Below are positions 1-31,025 of a stretch of DNA of 40,922 nucleotides, piece after piece; position 1 is the first letter of the stretch; every line of letters begins with the position of its first letter. Source of the DNA: a virus; the IMG/VR virus record IMGVR_UViG_3300027706_000283, positions 1-40,922 of that record; one strand, given 5' to 3'. Below the pieces are notes generated by a model, which saw only the letters and a list, made by a program, of their open reading frames with translations, searched no databases and was not told where the DNA came from. The position numbers and the translations under genes were made by a program.

Positions 1-2298
1 TCACATCAGGTCGGCGACCAGCACGGCGCCGTCCCAGTCAGGCTCCGGCGGCGTGCGGAGGAACCCGCGGACACGCTCCAGCATGATGGCGGCCGGACGG
101 TCATCCGGCACCAGGCGCAAAAGGATGGTGGAGAACACGCGCTCCGCCTCGGCGAAATTGCGCTCCTCCATGGCCGCCAGCCCCTGCCGGTAAAGCGCTG
201 CCGCCTCCTCCATGGCCCCGGGCAGCTTGCCTTTCGGGCAGAGCAGCTCGTAGATGTACTGGGGCTTGTCGCCCGCCTCGAGCTTGACCTTGTCCAGCTC
301 CCGGATCTCGAAGTGCTCGGAGAGGATCTGCGACGTGCGCTCGGCCACAAGGCACCGCGTTCCATATTTCTTGTTCATGACCTCCAGCAGAAAGGCCAGA
401 TCGACGCACCTGCCGATGACACCATATTCGGTGTGCGACTCCGAGCCCATCCGCCCGCAGGAGGCCGGGCCGGTGGAGATGCCGCAGGAAAAGCTCAATG
501 CCTGATTGGAGTTGATGCGCCCCTCCCGCTGCCAGGCGGCGGACAAGGACGCCAGCTGGCCGCCCGCGTCCAGGCAGCAGTCGGCGGCCAGGCGCGCCCC
601 CGAGATCTCCGGAACGGGAAGCGGCGCCCCCCACACGGCCATCAGCCCGTGGTTCGAGACGCGGTTGACCAGCCCGTTGCGCTCGTGGACGCTTGCGGTC
701 ATGATGGCAACGCACTGGTCGAGCATGCGGATGGCCGCCTCCGGCGTCTTGTGCTCGATGAGAGGCGTCAGCCCCTGGAGCTGGAATGACAATGTGGTGA
801 CGACCGCCGTCTTTCCCTCGAGCCCCAGCTCGCCCAGCCGCCGGCGTTCGATCTCCTCGGCCAGCGCCTGCGGCACCAGGCTGCGAAAGATCCTGGTGTG
901 CTTGCGCCGCTCGTGGACGAAGAAGAGGTTCTGGTCGGTGAGCACGAGCAGCAAGGCCGGAAACGCCACGCCCGCGGTCGGCACCACCACCGGTATCACG
1001 CAGCCCAGCCAGGCGAAGGCGGCGAAGGAAAGGGCCAGCCAGATCACCGAGAAGCAGACGACCGAAACCAGCATCCACCACGGCTTGCCCCGCAGCTGCT
1101 CCAGGATGCGGGCGGCAAGCAGGGCCACAAAAAAGACGATCAGGATCTGCTCCCACAGATCCGGCTCGGACAGCGGACGCCGGTTCAGGATGTTGGCGAT
1201 TACATTGGCCTGCAGCTCCACCCCGGACATCGGGCTGGAAAAGCCGGCCGTGGGGGTGAGAAAGCTGTTGAACGGCAGCGCCTGCCGGTGCGGCAGCGCC
1301 CCCTGCGGCACCAGCTCCTCGGAAGCCGGGGAGTCCTGGTAGCCGACAAGGACGATCCTGCCGGAAAACGGGTTGGCCACGAAGTGCTTCTCCCAGTCCA
1401 CCGCCCGCCAGAAGGGAATGGCGGTCACGCTGCCGGCCGGGCCCAGATAATTTATGCGGATGGTGTGTGGAAACCAGCCGCCGGCAAGTGCGAGCCGCTC
1501 CTGGCCGTCAACGACGGCCCGGGCCTTTTCCGCCTTCTCGCAAACGCGCAGGCCAAAGGAGTGATAGAAGATGCTCAGGTGTTTGAAGCTCTCCAAGACC
1601 AGCGGCGCCCGCCTGACCACCCCGTCCTCGTCCGGCTGCACATCCACGTTGCCGATCGAGCCGGCATCGGAGCCGAGTGCGGACACGAACTCCTCATAGG
1701 GGGTGCGATAGAAGTACTGCGTGCGGCCGTTGAAGAGATTGACCCGCACCTCCACGTTGTCAGCCAGCACCACGTTCTTCATCCGCCGGAACTCGTCGGC
1801 CAGCGCCCGGTCGTCGCCGTCGGCCGTTGTGCTCCAGGCGAGCGACATGCTGTCCGGCAACACCGCCTTCAGGCGCGGCGAGAGAGCCGCGCTGGCGCCG
1901 GCCGAGAGCGGCGACGGCCCGTCGAAGAGCAGATCGAAGGCCACGACCCGGGCCCCGGCTTCCCGCAGGCGCCGGCACAAAAGCGCGTACACCTGGCGCG
2001 GCCACGGCAGCGGCATCCCCAGCCGCCGCGCCGACTCGGAATCCACATTGACAAGGACCAGATCCGGCGCAGCCTGGCCGCCGCGCCCGCCCGCCAGCAG
2101 GGCGCGCCAGAGGAAGAACTGATCGGACAGGCGCAGCTCCTGACCGGACAGGAAATCATAAAGCAGCGGCGGTCGCCAGGTCAGGACCAGGCAGGCAAAC
2201 ACGGCCACGGCCAGGCAGATGGCCAGCGTCCTGGCCGAGAGGCTGCGGGCAACCGCCTTCCACCAGTGAGAGCTTGTCGTGTTGACGCTGGTCTGCAA
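1..2298 (-). CDS. CHASE2-domain adenylate/guanylate cyclase homologue, probably catalytically inactive (host gene)
   Basis: A 765-residue membrane protein with TTG start at 2298; an in-frame stop a few codons upstream rules out a longer start. An N-terminal membrane segment (about 23-41) is followed by an extracytoplasmic CHASE2-type sensor (about 50-380), three membrane segments (about 383-455), a class III cyclase-like domain (about 495-685) and a short helical TPR-like tail. In active enzymes two aspartates bind the catalytic metals. Here the first motif reads QLQGLT (Q506 for Asp) and the second reads SNHGLMAVWG (H550 for Asp), so the domain probably does not make cAMP or cGMP and may act as a sensor or scaffold. 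It is the only host gene in the window. Family assignment is firm; inactivity is inferred from the motifs. Confidence 0.88.
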   Translation of the reverse strand: MQTSVNTTSSHWWKAVARSLSARTLAICLAVAVFACLVLTWRPPLLYDFLSGQELRLSDQFFLWRALLAGGRGGQAAPDLVLVNVDSESARRLGMPLPWPRQVYALLCRRLREAGARVVAFDLLFDGPSPLSAGASAALSPRLKAVLPDSMSLAWSTTADGDDRALADEFRRMKNVVLADNVEVRVNLFNGRTQYFYRTPYEEFVSALGSDAGSIGNVDVQPDEDGVVRRAPLVLESFKHLSIFYHSFGLRVCEKAEKARAVVDGQERLALAGGWFPHTIRINYLGPAGSVTAIPFWRAVDWEKHFVANPFSGRIVLVGYQDSPASEELVPQGALPHRQALPFNSFLTPTAGFSSPMSGVELQANVIANILNRRPLSEPDLWEQILIVFFVALLAARILEQLRGKPWWMLVSVVCFSVIWLALSFAAFAWLGCVIPVVVPTAGVAFPALLLVLTDQNLFFVHERRKHTRIFRSLVPQALAEEIERRRLGELGLEGKTAVVTTLSFQLQGLTPLIEHKTPEAAIRMLDQCVAIMTASVHERNGLVNRVSNHGLMAVWGAPLPVPEISGARLAADCCLDAGGQLASLSAAWQREGRINSNQALSFSCGISTGPASCGRMGSESHTEYGVIGRCVDLAFLLEVMNKKYGTRCLVAERTSQILSEHFEIRELDKVKLEAGDKPQYIYELLCPKGKLPGAMEEAAALYRQGLAAMEERNFAEAERVFSTILLRLVPDDRPAAIMLERVRGFLRTPPEPDWDGAVLVADLM

Positions 2299-2603: not shown

Positions 2604-3605
2604 ATGACGGACGACGTTCCGGCGCTTTTGCGCGCCGTTTTGGCCAAACTTGACGACAGGACACGCCTTGCCGGGGGACCCGGCTGCGCGACGCTTGGGG
2701 AAGTCTTCTCTGTCTACTGCGACCGACACGCGAGTCGACGCTGTAAGACATACCGGCAGATTCGCTCGAACTTCGAGCGCTACCTCGGCCACCTCCGCGA
2801 CTTGTCGCTCGACATGCTGACCGCGGATCTCATTCAAGAGCTCCACGACTTCCTGGCGGACACCCGCGGCCGCGCGACCGCGAATCGGACGCTCGAACTG
2901 CTCCGAGCAATGCTCAATCGCGCGAAGCGCTGGCGCATCGTCAAGGGTGAGAATCCAGCGCTCGTCGTCGAACCGTTCAGGCTGTTCCCGCGCGAGCGTT
3001 TCCTCTCGGCCGACGAGCTCCCCAGGTTCATCGCGGCGGTCGACTCCGAGCGGAAGCAAGTCAATCGCGACTTCTTCAAGATGCTGCTTTTCACTGGGCA
3101 GCGCGTCAGCAACGTGATGGCGATGCGCTGGTCAGAGATAGATTTCGACTCGCGCCTCTGGCTCATCCCGGCGCCGGAGATGAAAAATAACCGCGTCGGC
3201 GTCGCTGTCCTCTGCGACGCGGCGATCGAGATACTGAAGCGCCGCAGGATTGGCGCGCGGACCGGCTGGGTATTCCCTGGCCGCACATTGCCGGGACGAA
3301 TGGGCTATCCGTCCCGCGCCTGGGCGCGGATCCTCCGACGGTCCGGGCTGCAGAACTTCCGCGTACACGACCTGCGGCGGACGCATGCGAGCTGGATGAT
3401 AAAGAGCGGCGCCAGCCTGCAGATTACCGGCAAGGCGCTCAATCACCGATCGTTGACGGCAACGCTCGTCTATGCGCGGCTTGACATGGACCCGGTCCGG
3501 GCCGCCGTCGAGAAAGGCGTCGCGGCAATGTTAGCGGCCGGCGGCCTATCTGGAGAGAATCGAGCGTACGAGCGCATCGCTGGCGTGCTCGCCGATCAGG
3601 CTTGA
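2604..3605 (+). CDS. int: Tyrosine-type phage integrase
   Basis: Site-specific recombinase that would integrate and excise the prophage at the adjacent tRNA-derived site. Counting from a GTG at 2595, the active-site set is R170 (TGQRVSN), K197, H258 and R261 (HDLRR), H284 (LNHRS) and nucleophile Y293 (YARL), in the right order and spacing. The N-terminal part (about 30-130) looks like a SAM-like core-binding domain. I prefer ATG 2604 over GTG 2595 because GGAGGTGG at 2591-2598 is then a well-placed ribosome binding site. The C-terminal 60 bases overlap, tail to tail, the gene on the other strand. No excisionase is recognised beside it. Confidence 0.95.
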   Translation: MTDDVPALLRAVLAKLDDRTRLAGGPGCATLGEVFSVYCDRHASRRCKTYRQIRSNFERYLGHLRDLSLDMLTADLIQELHDFLADTRGRATANRTLELLRAMLNRAKRWRIVKGENPALVVEPFRLFPRERFLSADELPRFIAAVDSERKQVNRDFFKMLLFTGQRVSNVMAMRWSEIDFDSRLWLIPAPEMKNNRVGVAVLCDAAIEILKRRRIGARTGWVFPGRTLPGRMGYPSRAWARILRRSGLQNFRVHDLRRTHASWMIKSGASLQITGKALNHRSLTATLVYARLDMDPVRAAVEKGVAAMLAAGGLSGENRAYERIAGVLADQA

Positions 3606-4208
3606 TCCGAACTGGCTCGTCGGCAGCTCAACCGGAGCCGGCGCACTTCCCGCGAAGAACTCGACCCCGACATCGGGAGACAGTCCGAGCAACGCTTTCT
3701 CGTAAATGTGTCGCATCTCAAGCCTTCCCGGGCCCCTGGAGATGAACGAGATTTGTTCTGGCCCGCAAGAGATCTTTCTGATGACGCCGTCCTTTACCTC
3801 TATTTTGGTAACTTGCGCATCCTCACACAGGACGCCCAACTGAGTGATGCTAGGCGCAGAGATTGCGGAATAGATGGCATAGGAAGAGGAGCGCTCGCCG
3901 CGCGATTCCTCGACTGACGTAGCCCAGTTCTGGCTCACCCAGAGCTGGACCGCTTGCTGTCCTCGGCCGCCGAACGGGCGTCCCTGCCAGCCAATTCTGC
4001 GCCAGCCTGCCGCCTGCGCCCCGAGATTCGGCAACATCCGCTCATCGAATCTGGAGCCGGCGACCATCTGCACCGGCGCACTGCGGTCCACGGCGCCGGT
4101 CATCGGAAGCTCCACGTCTTGTTCGATCGTCGCCTTCAGCGGTGCCGAAAACGCTGGCTGCGAAGTCAGCAGATAGACAAAAATCGCCGACAAAAGCCCT
4201 TTTTTCAT
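3546..4208 (-). CDS. Secreted protein of unknown function (possible moron)
   Basis: A 220-residue protein starting with a clear Sec signal peptide: MKK, a hydrophobic stretch to about residue 18 and a likely cleavage site at AFSA. A purine-rich ribosome site (GGGGGA) lies 8 bases before the ATG at 4208. The mature part has no motif I recognise; two cysteines (near LCED and ISCGP) could form a disulfide in the periplasm. It reads against the late genes, is convergent with the integrase and overlaps its last 60 bases. Position between integrase and packaging genes and its own orientation suggest a gene expressed in the lysogen, such as a lysogenic-conversion or superinfection factor. That role is inference. 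Confidence 0.7.
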   Translation of the reverse strand: MKKGLLSAIFVYLLTSQPAFSAPLKATIEQDVELPMTGAVDRSAPVQMVAGSRFDERMLPNLGAQAAGWRRIGWQGRPFGGRGQQAVQLWVSQNWATSVEESRGERSSSYAIYSAISAPSITQLGVLCEDAQVTKIEVKDGVIRKISCGPEQISFISRGPGRLEMRHIYEKALLGLSPDVGVEFFAGSAPAPVELPTSQFGSSLIGEHASDALVRSILSR

Positions 4209-4265
4209 TGGCCGATCCCCCTTTCCCGACCATATCAGACGGCCGCCAGATCGTAAAGTTCCGGG

Positions 4266-4517
4266 TCAGACGGGCGGCGTGTTAGCCGGTCGGCCACCCT
4301 TGCGGCCGTTTTTTCGTGCCTTTTTAGCCTTCTTCGGAGACCTTTTGCACCCGTTAAGGCTGCCCAGAACGGAAGCGAACAGCGCAAAATATTCGTCCTC
4401 GGACACCTGATCGTTCTTCTCCCACCGTCCAGGCCATAGCTTGTCAGCAGCCTTTTTCAGCGCAGCAGCGACCGGCTGACCCGGCGTCGCTCGCCCGATG
4501 TCCTGAAAGCCGACCAT
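4266..4517 (-). CDS. Small basic-tailed protein, unknown
   Basis: An 83-residue protein with a strong ribosome site (GAGGAGG) just before the ATG at 4517. The first 60 residues look helical and include an acidic stretch (SEDEYFALFASVLG). The last 25 are strongly basic and end in a KNGRKGGRP-type tail, as seen in small DNA-binding phage and bacterial proteins. It lies upstream of the secreted-protein gene in the same direction, 57 bases apart, so the two may be co-transcribed. The 500-base region upstream would hold its promoter. I do not recognise a family; a DNA-binding role is only suggested by charge. Confidence 0.6.
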   Translation of the reverse strand: MVGFQDIGRATPGQPVAAALKKAADKLWPGRWEKNDQVSEDEYFALFASVLGSLNGCKRSPKKAKKARKNGRKGGRPANTPPV

Positions 4518-21193: not shown

Positions 21194-21703
21194 GTGCGCA
21201 CGCTGACCGCTATAGCCCAGAAGGCCGTTCATGCAAGGGAGACATCAGACGTCGTCCTCCTTCTGCTCGAGCTTTCTCACGTGCAGTTCGCGCAGACGCA
21301 TTATCTCGTCCAGAACAGCACGGACGTCACGATCAGCGGGCAGACGTACAAGGCGACTCGGATGTCGATCACGCTTCCTTACGACGCGGACGATCAGCTC
21401 CGACAGCTGCAGGTGTCGATCGACAATGCAGACCAGACGCTCACCGAAGACATTCTGAACGCGCAAATTACTCCTCCGCAGGCTGTGATCTATGTCGCTG
21501 TCTCGAACAATATCAACGATCCCGAGATAACTGCCGGCCCAATGACGTTTGACGTCCAGCAAGTCGTCGGGACGGACTCGGACCTCGGGCTCGTGCTGCT
21601 CGGACCGCCGGTCTTGAACGAGCCGCTGCTCGGCTGGAGCTACACTCCCGACCTCTTCCCAGGGCTGTTTGCTGCCGACCCGACGGCCGGGGTGTCTAAA
21701 TGA
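21194..21703 (+). CDS. Tail-tip protein, DUF1833-like
   Basis: A 169-residue protein with GTG start immediately after the preceding stop. It has the pattern of DUF1833-type minor tail proteins: VLLLLELSHVQFAQTHYLVQN, ATRMSITLPYDADDQLRQLQVSIDN and a middle VIYVAVSNNI. The order tape measure, small tip protein, DUF1833-like, J-like hub is common in this phage type. It overlaps the hub gene by ATGA. Confidence 0.75.
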   Translation: MRTLTAIAQKAVHARETSDVVLLLLELSHVQFAQTHYLVQNSTDVTISGQTYKATRMSITLPYDADDQLRQLQVSIDNADQTLTEDILNAQITPPQAVIYVAVSNNINDPEITAGPMTFDVQQVVGTDSDLGLVLLGPPVLNEPLLGWSYTPDLFPGLFAADPTAGVSK

Positions 21704-24700
21704 GCCTCTCCTTCAACCCCGCGACCGGCTCGTTCCAGCCTTACGGCTACTTGCCGCAACCGTTCTACGGACTGGGCAACGGGCCGCCGGTCGGTTTCGC
21801 CGGCACGTCGCCGCTGTTCTCGAGCCTCGGGTTCACGAGCGTCGTCGGCGCGCTCGCGGCCGCGACTATCGGCATCGGGGCTGCCTTCGGACTGGCGGCT
21901 TTGTCTCGGTCGGGCACGGCCAACACCGTGCAGAGCCAACCATTCGCCGCCGTGCCGCTTGGACCGCCCGTTACGACTCAGCCGCAGCCGCTGCCGCAGG
22001 TCGGCGGCCCATCGCACGCGCTCGTCCCGCAGATAACTGGTATCACGAACCGCAGCGCGCCCTACGAGATGGTGCCGCGCGTATACGGCAAATATCGTAT
22101 GTACCCCAGCAACGGCGCGACGCCATACTCGTTCACGCAGAACGGCGAGCAGATCTGGTCTATCCTGCTGTGCCTCGGGCCCGGGCCGCTGAACATCCAG
22201 AACGTCGAGATCGGGCAGAGGCCGCTCGCCCAATACCCGGCCGGCACGGTTCTCAGCGAGATCTCCGCCGGCACCGCCAGCGACGCGCCGATCACGCTCT
22301 ACACGGAAGACATCCAGGAGGACGACTTCATCCTGCCGCTTGCGAGTGGGCAAGTGCAGCAACGGACCGCGATCGGTGCGGCCGACGAGCTTTCCATCGA
22401 CATCCAGTTCCCGCTCGGGCTCTACACTGTCACCACGGTCGTCAACACGTACAAGATCCCGCAGCCGCCGGGGAGCCCGTACGGCCCGGGCGGCGCGCTC
22501 GCCAGCCTGCAGCCGTCCGTTACGACGGTCACGCCGAACGTCCAGGCGGCCGCGTCCGTGAGCTTCAACGTGAAATACCGGCTCGCGGGATCGAGCGGCG
22601 CGTGGACGTCCGTCGGCGCCGTCTCCGTCTCTGACCTGACCTCCGGGTCACTCACCAGGACGGTCAAGTGGACAGTCCCGAATGGCGTCTATGACATCCA
22701 GGTCGAGAAGGTCACAGGAGACGGCGACGGGACGACGACCGTCAACTATTGCCAGTGGATAGCGTCTAGGGCGATCAATTTCAAGAGCCCGATGCCGTCT
22801 CTGAAGGACCAGAGCGGCAATCCGGTCTATCTCGCGCAGATCGCCATGCAGGTCAAACCCAGCTCCGTAGTAAGCGGCGCGCTCCAGCAGATCGGCTGCG
22901 ATGTCACGAGCCAACTCCCCGCATGGAACGGCTCAAGCTGGACCGCGGCAGCAGACACGCAAAATCCCGCCTGGATCCTCGCCGATATATTGAAGACGGA
23001 TTACGCCCGCAAATGCGTGAGCGCGAGCTCGCTCGACCTGGCCGCGTTCCTCGACTGGGCAAACTTCTGCGATGCCAGCGGCTTCACGTTCAACAAGATC
23101 TACGATCAATCCGTCACCGTCCTGGACGCCGTCAAGGAAGTCACAGCCGCTGGGCGCGCGACCTGGGCGATCCGGGACGGCGTCTTCACGGTCATCGTCG
23201 ACAAGCCGCGCGACACTGTCGCGCAATGCTTTACGCCACTCAACTCGTCCGGGTTCCGGTTCACGAAGCAGTTCCCTTATCCCGTGCATGCGCTGAAGGT
23301 CAATTTCGTCAATGCCGACACGTCATACCAGCAGGACACGATCGTCGTCTACGATGACGGCTACGACGCGAGCACGGCCACGAAGTTCGAGTCGCTCGAT
23401 CTGCCCGGTGTAACGAGCCACGCGCAAGCCTGGAAGCTCGGCCGGTATCATCTGGCGTGCAGACGCCTCAGGCCGTACGTCTATCAGTTCACCACGGACG
23501 TCGAGAACCTGGCGGTCACCCGCGGCGACCTGATCTCCATGACGACCGACACGATGCTCTGGGGTGCCGGTGCGGGACGGATAACAGACGTCATCCTCGA
23601 CGCGTCAAACAATGTGTTAGCGGTCACCCTCGATAACGAGATCGCACTCGACGCGAACAAGAGCTATTCGGTCAGGATCCGCTCTTACTTCGGCGACACC
23701 GTGAGCGCGGCGCTGACGCTCGGAGGCACCGGACGCACGCTTACTTTCCAGACGCCGCTCGACCCGGCAAGCGCGCCGCATAACGGCGACCTGGTGCTCG
23801 TCTTCGAGACGGGCAAAGAGCAGCTGCTCCTCGTCTCGGCCATCGAGCCGCACGAGGACCTCGCTGCCCTTATCACCGCCATCGACTATAGCCCGGACGT
23901 ATACGCGGCGGACAGCGGGACGATCCCCGACTTCGTGAGCAACATCACACAGCCGGTCTTTCAGCAGAAGACACTGCCCGCGCCGTCCATTAACAACATC
24001 CGGACAGACGAGCTCGTCCTCTTCCGCGACCCGGACGGCTCGCTTCAGAGCCGCATCCAGCTCGTCATGGACCCACCGCCGGCGAGTGTCAAATATTTCG
24101 AGGCCCGATCGCGGCGCACCGGCTCGAGTCTCTGGGGACCCGTGCACGACACACCCGTCACCACCGGGGCAGTCTACATCACCGGCGTCAGTGACATGCT
24201 CACCTACGACGTCCAGGTCCGCAGCCTCGACGCAGATGGCTTCACGTCGGACTGGGTCGAGGCTGACGGCATCCTCGTGATCGGGAAGACCACGCCGCCG
24301 CCCGTGCCAGTCGGGATCAACATGCTTTTCGATACGAAAGGCAACCCGACGAGCGTCTACTGGCAATATTCGGAGACCGCGCTCGGGCAGCCCGTGCCGC
24401 CAGACCTGGCAGGCTTTCGCGTGAAGTACCTGCAGGGCGCCGGCGTCAACTGGGACGGCGGCCACGTTGCCGCCGACTTGATCACTGCGACGCAATGGGA
24501 CATGAAGAACATGCCACTCGGCATCGTGACTGTCATGGTCAAGGCGGTCGACACGAGCGGCAACGAGTCGAGCGGCAATCCAGCTTATATCATCCGCAAC
24601 CTGGGCGACGCGCCGGTCGAGAATGTGATCGACACCATTTCTTCGGGCCCTGCGTACTCCGACGGCACGATCACGAACGGGACGGTCTCGGGCGGCATAA

Positions 24701-25377
24701 TCTCCGCGACCGACAACGGCGGCCTATTCTACACGGCGGACACCGGGGCGCTCATGTACAGCCCGGTCCCGAGCAACGACTTCTATACGATCACTTATCT
24801 CGAGATGAGCTTCGAGAAGACGTTCGAGCCGGACGCCGACACGCCGCAGCCGTTCAGCATCTCTCTTGACACGGCGATCACCGGCGAGAGCTACAAGGTC
24901 GAATACATGGAGCACGGCACGTCTTGTTTTTACGCCCAGGGGCCGCTCGCGTCGTCGACGCCTTTCTACAATTCCGACACGGGCTCGAGTTTCTACACGG
25001 ATAACTCTTCCTACGTTCCGTGGCCAGGTTACGTGACCGGCACCATCACACGTTACAGCTTCAAGGTGACGACAGCCGAGAGCAGCCTGGCCAAAGGCGA
25101 GATATCGAAGTTCGACATCGTGCTCGACGTGCCGGACAAGACCGAAAACGTGATCGGCTTCTCGGTGCCCGCCGCCGGCGGCAGGCTGCCGCTATCCAAC
25201 GTATATGTGTCCATAACTACGGTCAACCCGACGATCCTGGGCTCGGGCGGGGTCGGCTCCGCCGCAATTTCCTGCCAGGTCCTCGACAAGAGCGTCTCCG
25301 GTCCGCTCGTGCAGTGCTTCGACAAGACGGGCTCGGCGGTAGGCGCCACTATAGATGCGTTCGTCCAGGGCTATTGA
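21700..25377 (+). CDS. J-like central tail fibre / host-specificity hub protein
   Basis: A 1225-residue tail-tip protein. The N-terminus has a hydrophobic segment (about 45-70: VVGALAAATIGIGAAFGLA), then a conserved hub region with RSAPYEMVPRVYGKYR and SILLCLGPGPLNIQNVEIG. A phage-tail_3-like region follows (LADILKTDYARKC, FLDWANFCDASGF, AIRDGVFTVIVDKPRD), then fibronectin type III-like modules (about 790-970) and a beta-rich C-terminal receptor-contact region with repeated FYTADTGALMY / FYNSDTGSSFY patterns. It would trimerise at the tail tip and recognise the host surface. Confidence 0.9.
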   Translation: MSLSFNPATGSFQPYGYLPQPFYGLGNGPPVGFAGTSPLFSSLGFTSVVGALAAATIGIGAAFGLAALSRSGTANTVQSQPFAAVPLGPPVTTQPQPLPQVGGPSHALVPQITGITNRSAPYEMVPRVYGKYRMYPSNGATPYSFTQNGEQIWSILLCLGPGPLNIQNVEIGQRPLAQYPAGTVLSEISAGTASDAPITLYTEDIQEDDFILPLASGQVQQRTAIGAADELSIDIQFPLGLYTVTTVVNTYKIPQPPGSPYGPGGALASLQPSVTTVTPNVQAAASVSFNVKYRLAGSSGAWTSVGAVSVSDLTSGSLTRTVKWTVPNGVYDIQVEKVTGDGDGTTTVNYCQWIASRAINFKSPMPSLKDQSGNPVYLAQIAMQVKPSSVVSGALQQIGCDVTSQLPAWNGSSWTAAADTQNPAWILADILKTDYARKCVSASSLDLAAFLDWANFCDASGFTFNKIYDQSVTVLDAVKEVTAAGRATWAIRDGVFTVIVDKPRDTVAQCFTPLNSSGFRFTKQFPYPVHALKVNFVNADTSYQQDTIVVYDDGYDASTATKFESLDLPGVTSHAQAWKLGRYHLACRRLRPYVYQFTTDVENLAVTRGDLISMTTDTMLWGAGAGRITDVILDASNNVLAVTLDNEIALDANKSYSVRIRSYFGDTVSAALTLGGTGRTLTFQTPLDPASAPHNGDLVLVFETGKEQLLLVSAIEPHEDLAALITAIDYSPDVYAADSGTIPDFVSNITQPVFQQKTLPAPSINNIRTDELVLFRDPDGSLQSRIQLVMDPPPASVKYFEARSRRTGSSLWGPVHDTPVTTGAVYITGVSDMLTYDVQVRSLDADGFTSDWVEADGILVIGKTTPPPVPVGINMLFDTKGNPTSVYWQYSETALGQPVPPDLAGFRVKYLQGAGVNWDGGHVAADLITATQWDMKNMPLGIVTVMVKAVDTSGNESSGNPAYIIRNLGDAPVENVIDTISSGPAYSDGTITNGTVSGGIISATDNGGLFYTADTGALMYSPVPSNDFYTITYLEMSFEKTFEPDADTPQPFSISLDTAITGESYKVEYMEHGTSCFYAQGPLASSTPFYNSDTGSSFYTDNSSYVPWPGYVTGTITRYSFKVTTAESSLAKGEISKFDIVLDVPDKTENVIGFSVPAAGGRLPLSNVYVSITTVNPTILGSGGVGSAAISCQVLDKSVSGPLVQCFDKTGSAVGATIDAFVQGY

Positions 25378-27956: not shown

Positions 27957-28250
27957 ATGTTTCTATCCGCCACAGGCATGCTCAAGTCCTTTTTTCGGTC
28001 CTTCCTGAAAGACCATCCGAAGCTCCCGCAGATAATCGCGAAGATCGAGGCGATCGAGACGCGCCTGGCACCGCTGGCGGCCAAGCTGCCCGCCGGCTGG
28101 GTCAATAAGCTGCTGGTCGCGGCGAACGACTTGCTCGGCAGCCCATTCGATGCCGCGGAGATCGCCACCGTTGAGGCCGCAGCGGCCGAGGCGGCTGAGA
28201 TCGCCAAGGACGTCGCCGAGGTCGCCCAGGAGCTCGGGGCCCTCGGGTAA
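27957..28250 (+). CDS. Small amphipathic protein of the lysis region, unknown
   Basis: A 97-residue helical protein with AAGGAGG before the ATG. It has an aromatic/basic N-terminus (LKSFFRSFLKDHPKLP), a middle helix (IIAKIEAIETRLAPLAAKLP) and an Ala/Glu-rich C-terminal helix. No full membrane segment is evident. Its stop overlaps the ATG of the receiver-membrane fusion gene (TAATG), so the two are likely translated together; it may be an accessory or partner of that protein. Confidence 0.6.
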   Translation: MFLSATGMLKSFFRSFLKDHPKLPQIIAKIEAIETRLAPLAAKLPAGWVNKLLVAANDLLGSPFDAAEIATVEAAAAEAAEIAKDVAEVAQELGALG

Positions 28251-28879
28251 TGCTAATAATCCTCTCTGCTGAAGACAGCGACACCTTCGCGCTCCTGGTC
28301 AAGCTCTTCTTCAGGAAGGAGGACGGCTTCGAGGTCGACACAGCCGATTCCGTGGCGGATGTGTTCACGAAGCTACGAGACAAGCGCTATGACGTGATCA
28401 TCCTCGACCTGGGGCTGAAGGACAGCCAGGGACTCGAAACGCTTCACCGGATCGTCGAAAGGACCAGTACCCCCGTCATCGTTCTCACCGGATCGCACAA
28501 TGAGGAGTTAAAGCAAGAGTGTATGAATAGCGGAGCAGCAGGGTTTATCACGAAGAAACCGTTCCACGACCAGGAGCTCGTCGAACTCGTCCTGCGGTGC
28601 GGCCTGAGCAACCGCCCGCGACACGTCGAAGAGCACAAGAGAAGGATCCAGGCGCGCCTGCAGGCGGAGGCCACGCCAAGGCATATCAGACTCGCGGGCT
28701 ACAGCAGCGCCGCCGCCATCCTGCTTTGCCTGATAATCGACGGTGCATCGCAGATGTATTATCAGCACTCGTACAAGATCCCCGAGTGGGTCCTGTCGCT
28801 GGCGGTGCCCGGCGCGTTGCTCGGAACTGGGCACTACGTCGACAAGAAGATCCTCGGCTCGAAGCCAGACCTGCGCTGA
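28250..28879 (+). CDS. Receiver domain fused to two membrane segments; candidate phospho-regulated holin
   Basis: A 209-residue protein. Residues 1-118 form a response-regulator receiver: acidic pair E8/D9, phospho-acceptor D53 in IILDLGL, T80 in VIVLTGS and K103 before proline in TKKPF, so all key positions are present. After a charged linker (about 119-146) come two hydrophobic segments (about 148-166 and 180-197) and a short basic tail. There is no DNA-binding or enzyme output domain. It lies 12 bases before a lysozyme lacking its own export signal, the usual place of a holin, and no other holin is evident nearby in this operon. Holin function and phosphorylation control are inference; a membrane-tethered phosphate sink is the alternative. 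Confidence 0.7.
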   Translation: MLIILSAEDSDTFALLVKLFFRKEDGFEVDTADSVADVFTKLRDKRYDVIILDLGLKDSQGLETLHRIVERTSTPVIVLTGSHNEELKQECMNSGAAGFITKKPFHDQELVELVLRCGLSNRPRHVEEHKRRIQARLQAEATPRHIRLAGYSSAAAILLCLIIDGASQMYYQHSYKIPEWVLSLAVPGALLGTGHYVDKKILGSKPDLR

Positions 28880-28891
28880 TCGGGGGCTCTC

Positions 28892-29455
28892 ATGACGGAT
28901 CCGTTGATCGCCATCATCAAAGGATACGAGTCCTTCGGCGGCGGGGTCATCGGAGGCAAGTCTTATCCGTATCACGGCGCCGCCGACGCGCCCGGCGTCC
29001 TTACCGTCGGATTCGGGCACGTACTGAGCCGGGACGAGGTGCGGACCGGCCGCTTCAAGGACGGGCTAACTGTCGAGGAGGCGGAGCAGCTGCTCCTGGA
29101 GGACCTCAAGCCGCGCATACGGCTCGCGCAGACTCTTATCCGGAAGGCGGACCGGCACGAGCTCGGCGCGTTTGTCGATCTGCTATACAACTGCGGGACG
29201 GCGCCGCTTGTCGGCAGTCCCGGCATACAGCACAACAAGGGCAATAAGCGCAGCGCCGCCATGGCGATGCCGCTCTACGACTGCGGATGCCGTCACCGGC
29301 ATTTGCTCGGATTGTGGCGCCGGCGCCTCACCGACGTCCTCTATTATCTGACCGGCGAGCTTATCGTCGCCAGGGATTCGGCGAGCGAGGATCGGTTAAC
29401 GAAGAGGCTGGCGTCGATGGGTTACAGCTGGGTGAAGCCGGTCGATATGCACTAA
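28892..29455 (+). CDS. Endolysin, T4-type lysozyme (GH24)
   Basis: A 187-residue peptidoglycan hydrolase. Likely catalytic residues are E13 (KGYESFGG), D32 and T38, with the family signature TVGFGHVLS at 38-46; the D-to-T spacing equals that in T4 lysozyme. The C-terminal part carries ALGAFVDLLYNCG-type and LWRRRLTDVLYY motifs. There is no signal peptide or SAR segment, so release needs a holin. No Rz/Rz1 spanin genes are recognised. Its stop codon overlaps the stop of the opposing gene, leaving no room for a terminator. Confidence 0.9.
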   Translation: MTDPLIAIIKGYESFGGGVIGGKSYPYHGAADAPGVLTVGFGHVLSRDEVRTGRFKDGLTVEEAEQLLLEDLKPRIRLAQTLIRKADRHELGAFVDLLYNCGTAPLVGSPGIQHNKGNKRSAAMAMPLYDCGCRHRHLLGLWRRRLTDVLYYLTGELIVARDSASEDRLTKRLASMGYSWVKPVDMH

Positions 29456-30045
29456 TACCCTATGCCCGGATAGATTTCATACGCGCCTTCGCTCACGCCA
29501 GGTTCGAGCTTCTTCACAGGCAGCTCGCCTACGGGCTCCACGGTGCAGACGCGACAGATGCCGGTCCGGATGTCGAGCGTGCGGCACAAGCAGCCGGCGC
29601 ACTTGCGGAGCGGGGCGCCGCGAGTGAGGAACGGGACAGGCGCGGGAACCGTTGCGTCCATGACCGGCTCGGACTCCTCGCGCTCGTCCGCGGCAGGACC
29701 AGGGGCCTGCGCGTTGTACCGCGACCGGCTGCTCACCCGACGACACGTCGCGCAGATCCCAGATGAGCTGCGCTTGTTCGGACGCCTTATTCCGCACGTT
29801 GCACATTTGGCGCGTTCGCCGCGGCTGGCAGCCGGCTGATTCGAGGAGGCGGGTTTCGCGGCGGCGGTCTCCGCGCCTCGAGGTATCGGGGCGGATGGAC
29901 CGACCTCTTCAGACAGCCGAGCGACGGCCTCGCCCAGGGCGCTAAGCAGCAGCAGCATCAATCGCTCGCGAATGTCGCCGAGCTGCGCGTCTATACCCGG
30001 CTCCATGCGTCCCGCCCTCTCTCTCTCTCTCTTTCTCTCTCTCAT
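29452..30045 (-). CDS. Double zinc-ribbon protein, last gene of the leftward operon
   Basis: About 197 residues from ATG 30045 (GGGGAGGAG just upstream); ATG 30006 is an alternative start. Two cysteine modules, CATC-x12-CATC in the middle and CAGC-x11-CRVC near the C-terminus, suggest two zinc ribbons separated by a Pro/Ala/Glu-rich linker. Such proteins often bind nucleic acid or bridge proteins, so a regulatory role at the early/late junction is possible but not shown. The codons after ATG 30045 are an almost pure GA dinucleotide repeat (RERKRERER), so slippage there would alter the frame. Confidence 0.6.
   Translation of the reverse strand: MRERKRERERAGRMEPGIDAQLGDIRERLMLLLLSALGEAVARLSEEVGPSAPIPRGAETAAAKPASSNQPAASRGERAKCATCGIRRPNKRSSSGICATCRRVSSRSRYNAQAPGPAADEREESEPVMDATVPAPVPFLTRGAPLRKCAGCLCRTLDIRTGICRVCTVEPVGELPVKKLEPGVSEGAYEIYPGIGY
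30017..30043. repeat. CT/GA dinucleotide tract at the start of the zinc-ribbon gene
   Basis: 27 bases of CT repeats with one interruption (TTT at 30032-30034), lying two bases inside the preferred start codon on the minus strand. Length changes of one or two units would shift the frame from ATG 30045, or change the ribosome site if ATG 30006 is used. Confidence 0.8.
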
Positions 30046-30436: not shown

Positions 30437-30620
30437 CAGCAGCCTCCTCCCGCACCCACCTCCGGATCGCGCCAATCCGCTCGCAACGCCGAAGGTAATG
30501 TTCCCGCTCGCGCAGTAGCCGCTCGGTCTCCATTTCAAGCCCTTTGAGCCTCACGTCGACGCGCACGGCGCTGCGGTTGAGCTCGACCCGCCTCCACCTG
30601 CGCTCCATCTCAATGTTCAC
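30429..30620 (-). CDS. Small coiled-coil basic protein
   Basis: About 63 residues from GTG 30620 (GGAGGAG 8 bases upstream); an ATG at 30608 is also possible. The sequence is a single highly charged helix rich in Arg and Glu (LKGLEMETERLLREREHYLRRCERI). It overlaps the stop of the upstream membrane protein gene and the start of the downstream gene. No function can be assigned. Confidence 0.55.
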   Translation of the reverse strand: MNIEMERRWRRVELNRSAVRVDVRLKGLEMETERLLREREHYLRRCERIGAIRRWVREEAADV

Positions 30621-30807
30621 TTGCTTTCTCCTCCGTCTCCGTCTTCGCCTTCTTCTCGGCGATCGCCTGGTCATGAGCCTCGCCCATGTGCTCCCACCCG
30701 GCCACGCCGACGCCGAACCCGATGAACGGCCCGAAAGCCTGTCCGAGCGCCGTGCCGCCCAGGGCGAAGATTGGGAGCAGCGTCCAGTGAAGTATTTTGA
30801 AAAGCAT
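30610..30807 (-). CDS. Small two-segment membrane protein
   Basis: A 65-residue protein from ATG 30807 with AGGAGG upstream. Two hydrophobic stretches (about 6-22 and 24-40, glycine-rich: PFIGFGVGVAGW) are followed by a charged Lys/Glu tail. Size and topology resemble small holins or antiholins, but it lies in the early operon. It might modulate lysis or act on the membrane early in infection; no family is recognised. Confidence 0.65.
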   Translation of the reverse strand: MLFKILHWTLLPIFALGGTALGQAFGPFIGFGVGVAGWEHMGEAHDQAIAEKKAKTETEEKASEH

Positions 30808-30818
30808 GTAGATCCTCC

Positions 30819-31025
30819 TTATTCGGCGGCCTTCGCCGCGGTCTTTCCCTTCCTCCACTTAGCCGCCTCGGGACAGCTCGAGAAGTGGCTGACATGACGG
30901 GTCAGGTCAAGCTCCAGGTCGCCGACCTCAACGGTCTCAGCGTCAACGGGCATATTCTTTCCTGCATCAGTCTTAAACCAGATGATCTGCGCGCCGCACG
31001 AGCGGCACAGCGATTGATTGTTCAC
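30819..31025 (-). CDS. Small zinc-binding phage protein
   Basis: A 68-residue protein from GTG 31025, preceded by AAGGAGGG. CRSCGAQIIWFKTDAGKNMP at the N-terminus and HFSSCPEAAKW at the C-terminus form a pattern common in small early phage proteins, with three cysteines and one histidine likely to bind zinc. Function unknown. Confidence 0.7.
   Translation of the reverse strand: MNNQSLCRSCGAQIIWFKTDAGKNMPVDAETVEVGDLELDLTRHVSHFSSCPEAAKWRKGKTAAKAAE

Follow-up and report, generated by a model that had tools for sequence, protein, structure and literature searches.

The product of a gene directly upstream of the endolysin gene in the phage record IMGVR_UViG_3300027706_000283 consists of a response-regulator receiver domain joined to a hydrophobic C-terminal region, and we propose, at a probability of roughly 0.58, that this protein is a membrane-anchored, phosphorylatable regulator of lysis. 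The proposal rests mainly on placement: receivers that lack an output domain recur among the lysis genes of eight lineages, the one described here included, in cassettes whose endolysins are of unrelated types. Counting against it, the fusion is known from one phage, the second of its hydrophobic segments is weak, and the end of a late operon is a common place for cargo genes. The whole record, 40,922 nucleotides in length, is referred to below as the window.

The open reading frame at 28250-28879(+) encodes a protein of 209 aa, as given by the ORF listing and translation of the window. A Pfam profile search matched PF00072 over residues 4-114 (E=6.7e-23; 81.4 bits, above the curated cut-off of 30.2 bits). 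In the alignment, E8/D9, D53, T80 and K102/K103 fall on conserved receiver positions, and the full phospho-site set is thus present: the acidic pair E8/D9, the phospho-acceptor D53, T80 and K103. An AF2 run with a receiver alignment modelled residues 1-118 as an alternating strand/helix receiver with pLDDT >90, and searches of the Pfam and PHROGs profiles found no output domain after it. The gene start overlaps the upstream 97-aa ORF by 1 base (TAATG), the stop lies 12 bp before the lysozyme ATG at 28892, and a hydrophobicity scan of the lysozyme detected no N-terminal TM or SAR segment. The preliminary description of this DNA, which had reported a 209-residue frame with the key receiver positions, no DNA-binding or enzyme output, and a location 12 bases before a lysozyme lacking an export signal, is borne out on each of these points. 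Searches for full-length homologues in IMG/VR, phages and GTDB genomes returned generic receivers and a single near-identical record, IMGVR_UViG_3300005524_000111, which is identical over 18,140 bp and is, therefore, not independent of the window. The C-terminus searched alone had no relatives in phages, plasmids, Pfam or PHROGs; a search of seven host-type genomes with the same query ran without a positive control.

Features of the window discussed in the text, with the basis of each assignment
Feature	Position	Strand	Basis
Receiver (CheY-like) domain, residues 1-117	28250..28600	+	PF00072, alignments, AF2 pLDDT >90
Charged helical linker, residues 123-141	28616..28672	+	AF2 pLDDT about 85
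TM1 (hydrophobic segment 1), residues 145-173	28682..28768	+	WW octanol, KD, AF2 helix
TM2 (hydrophobic segment 2, marginal), residues 179-194	28784..28831	+	WW; low-confidence helix
Phage lysozyme (endolysin), no export signal	28892..29455	+	PF00959 5.4e-12; phrog_7 endolysin 3.1e-12
97-aa ORF, no TM, function unassigned	27957..28250	+	ORF list, PHROGs, hydropathy
Two-TM ORF, 82 aa, rival holin candidate	30610..30858	-	WW -11.6 and -1.2; phrog_126 E=0.066
Central tail fibre protein J, query for kin phages	21700..25377	+	phrog_31 6.9e-86

The two hydrophobic segments differ in quality. TM1 is fair (WW octanol -4.2, KD 1.7) and is helical in both AF2 runs, while TM2 is marginal, with a WW value of -2.7 over 15 residues and a KD value <1.0 over 19. 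The AF2 run with the receiver alignment gave helices at 123-141 (pLDDT about 85) and 153-173 (about 60) and did not resolve TM2, which was helical only in the run with the C-terminal 92 residues alone, where three helices (122-140, 143-173 and 179-194) were predicted at low confidence. Of the two membrane segments claimed previously, the first is thus fair and the second marginal, so that "one and a half" describes the present evidence better. The predicted hairpin is bordered by basic residues on either side, TM2 being followed by a basic tail, and because of these flanking charges it fits an N-in/C-in topology.

The rightward operon of the window carries terminase, portal, major head protein, tape measure and tail fibre J genes, and the leftward genes include one for a DnaB-like helicase. 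Judged by eye, the left end, 1-2298(-), encodes an apparent CHASE2-type nucleotidyl cyclase of bacterial type, and motifs point to a tyrosine-recombinase-like ORF at 2604-3605(+); because of these two features the record is probably an integrated temperate phage (provirus) with some host DNA. The left-flank host gene had no match in Acidobacteriota at a very strict threshold. A CT-rich low-complexity run (ctctctctctctttctctctct) occupies 30013-30045, immediately to the right of the point where the two operons converge. The histidine-kinase ATPase domain (HATPase_c) had no match in the record; any phosphoryl group for the receiver must, therefore, be host-derived.

Receivers were then compared across phages by means of a grouping that we propose here, the lysis-cassette receiver, defined as an output-less receiver within two genes of an endolysin, holin or spanin gene. 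Besides the window, seven lineages contain one: the cultured alterophages V22, A5, R9Y, R8W/H4-4 and PB15, and the uncultured L111 and L153. V22 was reached by a BFVD fold search and tblastn, and L111, a 44-kb viral record, by an IMG/VR scan with the receiver alignment. The gene orders are varied. In R9Y1 (of R9Y1-R9Y3), a one-TM gene, the receiver gene and a GH108 lysozyme gene (5e-24) each overlap by 4 bp. L153 has the order one-TM, receiver, Amidase_3 (5e-46), and PB15 has coiled-coil TM, receiver, Peptidase_M15_3 (3e-13) and GTA_holin_3TM (3e-16). R8W and H4/4 (Autographiviridae) carry a DUF7940 class II holin gene (9e-13) followed by one-TM, receiver and two-TM genes. V22 combines a one-TM coiled coil, the receiver ORF30, an Rz-like spanin (phrog_4297, 7e-6; 32-bp overlap) and a two-TM gene, and A5 (Schitoviridae) has the V22 gene order and then an annotated endolysin. 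In L111, a tail-fibre-like gene precedes a stand-alone receiver, a one-TM gene and a V-Csn-type glycosidase (PDB 7tvm, E=5e-27). Overlaps between genes of the receiver cassettes are commonly 4 bp and range up to 47 bp, and the phospho-site Asp and Lys are kept in all eight lysis-linked lineages.

The preliminary description had suggested looking for proteins of the receiver plus two-TM type beside other phage lysins. Receivers do recur there, as described, and the fusion does not, having been found only in the window phage and in the sibling record identical to it. Elsewhere the receiver is encoded by a gene of its own, which usually adjoins a one-TM coiled-coil gene. Each lysis-linked receiver has either a TM partner or a TM fusion. 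The one-TM coiled-coil proteins upstream of alterophage receivers may be partners of these receivers. Three such proteins (L141:4627-4992, L144:3708-4004 and L146:3727-4008) share a similar C-terminal motif (LTELTMHLLNQR / LDDLMLHLMNQR / LKVLQAALLHRK). PT11-V19 has a related one-TM/receiver pair, in which the receiver (L146:3998-4450, adjoining the one-TM gene) no longer has the phospho-acceptor Asp or the Lys and is, hence, a pseudo-receiver.

Several observations define how widely such genes occur. No receiver was present in any of the 40 records drawn from the J-kin and V-Csn sets, which indicates that receivers are not common baggage. V-Csn neighbourhoods were considered as a general home for receivers and rejected, the receiver of L111 being the only one among 16 loci. 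In L111 the V-Csn chitosanase gene (3664-4266) directly follows the receiver and one-TM genes behind tail-fibre-like genes, which is a typical endolysin place; V-Csn chitosanase genes also occur in L123-L138, and a published account treats the soil-virus enzyme as an auxiliary metabolic gene (PMC9485262). Counting against the proposed lysis role, the stand-alone receiver of phage L116 has no recognised lysis genes beside it. Two IMG/VR contigs of 548 and 219 kb (L121 and L122) bear two small receiver genes in tandem around 3400-4400, and these are related in sequence to the window and L111 pair of the tree described below. Most receiver matches in the "phages" collection fell on unannotated sewage or faecal contigs without phage signs and were left uncounted.

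A maximum-likelihood tree of 40 sequences placed the alterophage receivers and that of L153 in one clade (98/96), and the receivers of the window and L111 paired elsewhere (98/77). The label "lysis cassette" requires two changes on this tree, and 0 of 500 label shuffles did as well. The tree does not join all lysis-cassette receivers in a single common descent; given the two changes, the entry of receivers into lysis cassettes appears to have happened at least twice, on a tree with few comparison receivers and several long branches, built from a set gathered by searching outwards from the window protein.

The timing of lysis determines burst size; the usual explanation of it combines holin accumulation with anti-holins. 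The occurrence of receivers among lysis genes suggests that these phages may let host signalling influence burst time. In the mechanism that we envision, the receiver of the 209-aa protein would face the cytoplasm and would be phosphorylated by a host histidine kinase or a small phosphodonor; it would then alter the state of the attached membrane segments or of holins that are its partners, and lysis timing would thereby track host physiology. In the window phage, receiver and membrane part form one protein that probably fills the holin slot; it may do so as the holin itself or, at somewhat longer odds, as an anti-holin or a membrane-anchored regulator of another holin, neither of these being better than even odds. 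In other phages the receiver would act beside separate one-TM and holin genes. Recognisable holins are present in R8W and PB15 in addition to the separate receivers, and because other lineages keep holin and receiver apart in this way, the common denominator would be a lysis regulator and not a holin. Counting against the proposed mechanism, the related receiver of PT11-V19 is without Asp and Lys, so that phosphorylation is not needed in every case. A broader version can be offered only tentatively: several unrelated phage groups might independently have put two-component phosphorylation over lysis, the receiver reading a host kinase or acetyl-phosphate and setting the holin trigger, with receiver and holin made one protein in the window phage.

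One alternative, the one raised in the preliminary description, is that the hairpin of two TM segments forms the hole, acting as the holin, with the receiver as its inbuilt timer, a possibility that we take seriously while holding it at less than even odds. The gene directly precedes that of a lysin in need of export, the charge pattern would suit N-in/C-in, and profile searches recognised no holin in the rightward operon and no member of three families (GTA_holin_3TM, DUF7940 and phrog_1356) in the record. A kin phage also points this way. L022, the best-matching tail-J relative besides the sibling record (J at 35% identity), has J followed by two ORFs, one of which matches a tail fibre, and then a 93-aa ORF and a two-TM protein of 124 aa whose N-terminus is predicted to be cytoplasmic; next comes an endolysin (phrog_181, 1e-36), which overlaps the two-TM gene by 4 bp. 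In the window, three ORFs come after J, and then the 97-aa ORF, the gene for the receiver-TM protein and that for the lysozyme; the 93-aa ORF, whose function is unassigned, occupies the slot of the 97-aa ORF. The receiver-TM protein thus occupies the slot of the holin-like protein of L022. Against holin identity stand the marginal TM2, the separation of holin and receiver genes in other lineages, a length of 209 aa where holins are commonly under about 150 aa, and the failure of the protein to match any known holin family (PHROGs, GTA_holin_3TM, DUF7940 and phrog_1356). Homology of its C-terminus to phrog_1356-type holins was rejected, given that 1262 of 5000 block-shuffled controls scored equally high, and homology of its hairpin to the L022 two-TM protein is suggestive only and falls short of significance: a local score of 39 has p 0.06-0.08 when blocks of 12 residues are shuffled, 0.17-0.31 when the blocks have 6 residues and about 0.01 with full shuffles. 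Thus the link of receivers to lysis genes and the slot shared with L022 support part of the original proposal, while the single-phage fusion and the weak TM2 leave the holin itself in doubt. The statement that no other holin was visible in the rightward operon agrees with the profile searches, with the caveat of a two-TM ORF of 82 aa on the minus strand. This ORF has two hydrophobic segments of strong profile and belongs to the leftward operon, close to the gene for the DnaB-like helicase. It might be the true holin, with the receiver protein as an accessory; its two-TM profile and a weak phrog_126 match would favour this, but the match is below significance, and the opposite strand and the helicase operon imply presumably early expression, so we regard it as unlikely. 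The confidences attached to the rival readings overlap and are not meant to total one.

The chief alternative is that the receivers are signalling cargo, that is, decoys that soak up host phosphoryl groups or rewire host signalling and that adjoin lysis genes as cargo of the late operon end. Authors have classed such genes as auxiliary metabolic genes (AMGs): the V22 receiver as a class II AMG for signalling (PMC7289586), that of R8W as PhoB in phosphate adaptation (PMC8228385), and those of V22 and A5 within a "host recognition module", with which they travel and which is common to A5, V22 and P24 (PMC10579305). Moreover, the complete response regulators of Komp_PAO1_1, Bhz63 and prophiGD05-1 sit away from lysis genes. 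Against this, stand-alone receivers are found in several lysis arrangements that are unrelated to one another and have tightly overlapping genes, their placement has at least two origins, a TM partner or fusion accompanies every case, and a late-operon position is late for rewiring the host; we consider the cargo explanation doubtful. That the window protein arose by chance, from a receiver recently gained and joined to a membrane segment, and has no selected role would agree with the limitation of the fusion to this phage and its sibling record. We think that this is very improbable, as the codon-position G+C pattern of the gene agrees with that of the neighbouring genes, the phospho-site is intact and the placement among lysis genes recurs elsewhere.

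The PhoB-like annotation deserves separate comment. R8W gp48 (L144:4001-4462) and H4/4 gp44 (L145) are annotated as PhoB-like DNA-binding response regulators. R8W gp48 has 153 aa, comprising a receiver and a short tail, which leaves no room for a PhoB-type DNA-binding domain, and the phosphate-adaptation reading of the two genes looks unsupported. Full-text searches of openly licensed papers, pairing receivers or response regulators with holins or lysis cassettes, found none that proposed a role in lysis. If receivers do control lysis, phages would couple lysis to host physiology via host phosphorelays, and CheY-like and PhoB-like genes now listed as AMGs in marine phages would acquire a new meaning; with the cultured Alteromonas phages, the idea can be tested without recourse to the uncultured soil phage.

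Class II holins have two TM segments and an N-in/C-in topology. The receiver-TM protein resembles those of the DUF7940 and phrog_1356 families in its slot before the endolysin, its two hydrophobic segments and its predicted cytoplasmic N-terminus, but it differs in having no significant sequence match to them and in being a protein of 209 aa with a folded receiver. The OmpR-type response regulators of prophiGD05-1 and Bhz63 share the receiver fold; unlike the window protein, they either carry a DNA-binding output or adjoin a histidine kinase, and they lie away from lysis genes. The N4 pinholin gp63 is comparable as a holin in which a cytoplasmic part has a regulatory effect on lysis timing, whereas its "Receiver" is the name of a cluster of lysis-timing mutations, for which the accessible text describes neither PF00072 nor phosphorylation; it was rejected as a precedent, the likeness being one of name only (PMC12642591). 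The closest counterparts are V22 gp30, A5 gp11 and R8W gp48. The accessible parts of their publications apply the AMG label and propose no lysis role, and the three differ from the window protein in being separate genes without a TM fusion and in belonging to a different receiver clade; like it, each is an output-less receiver with an intact phospho-site, located in or beside the lysis genes and near a TM gene.
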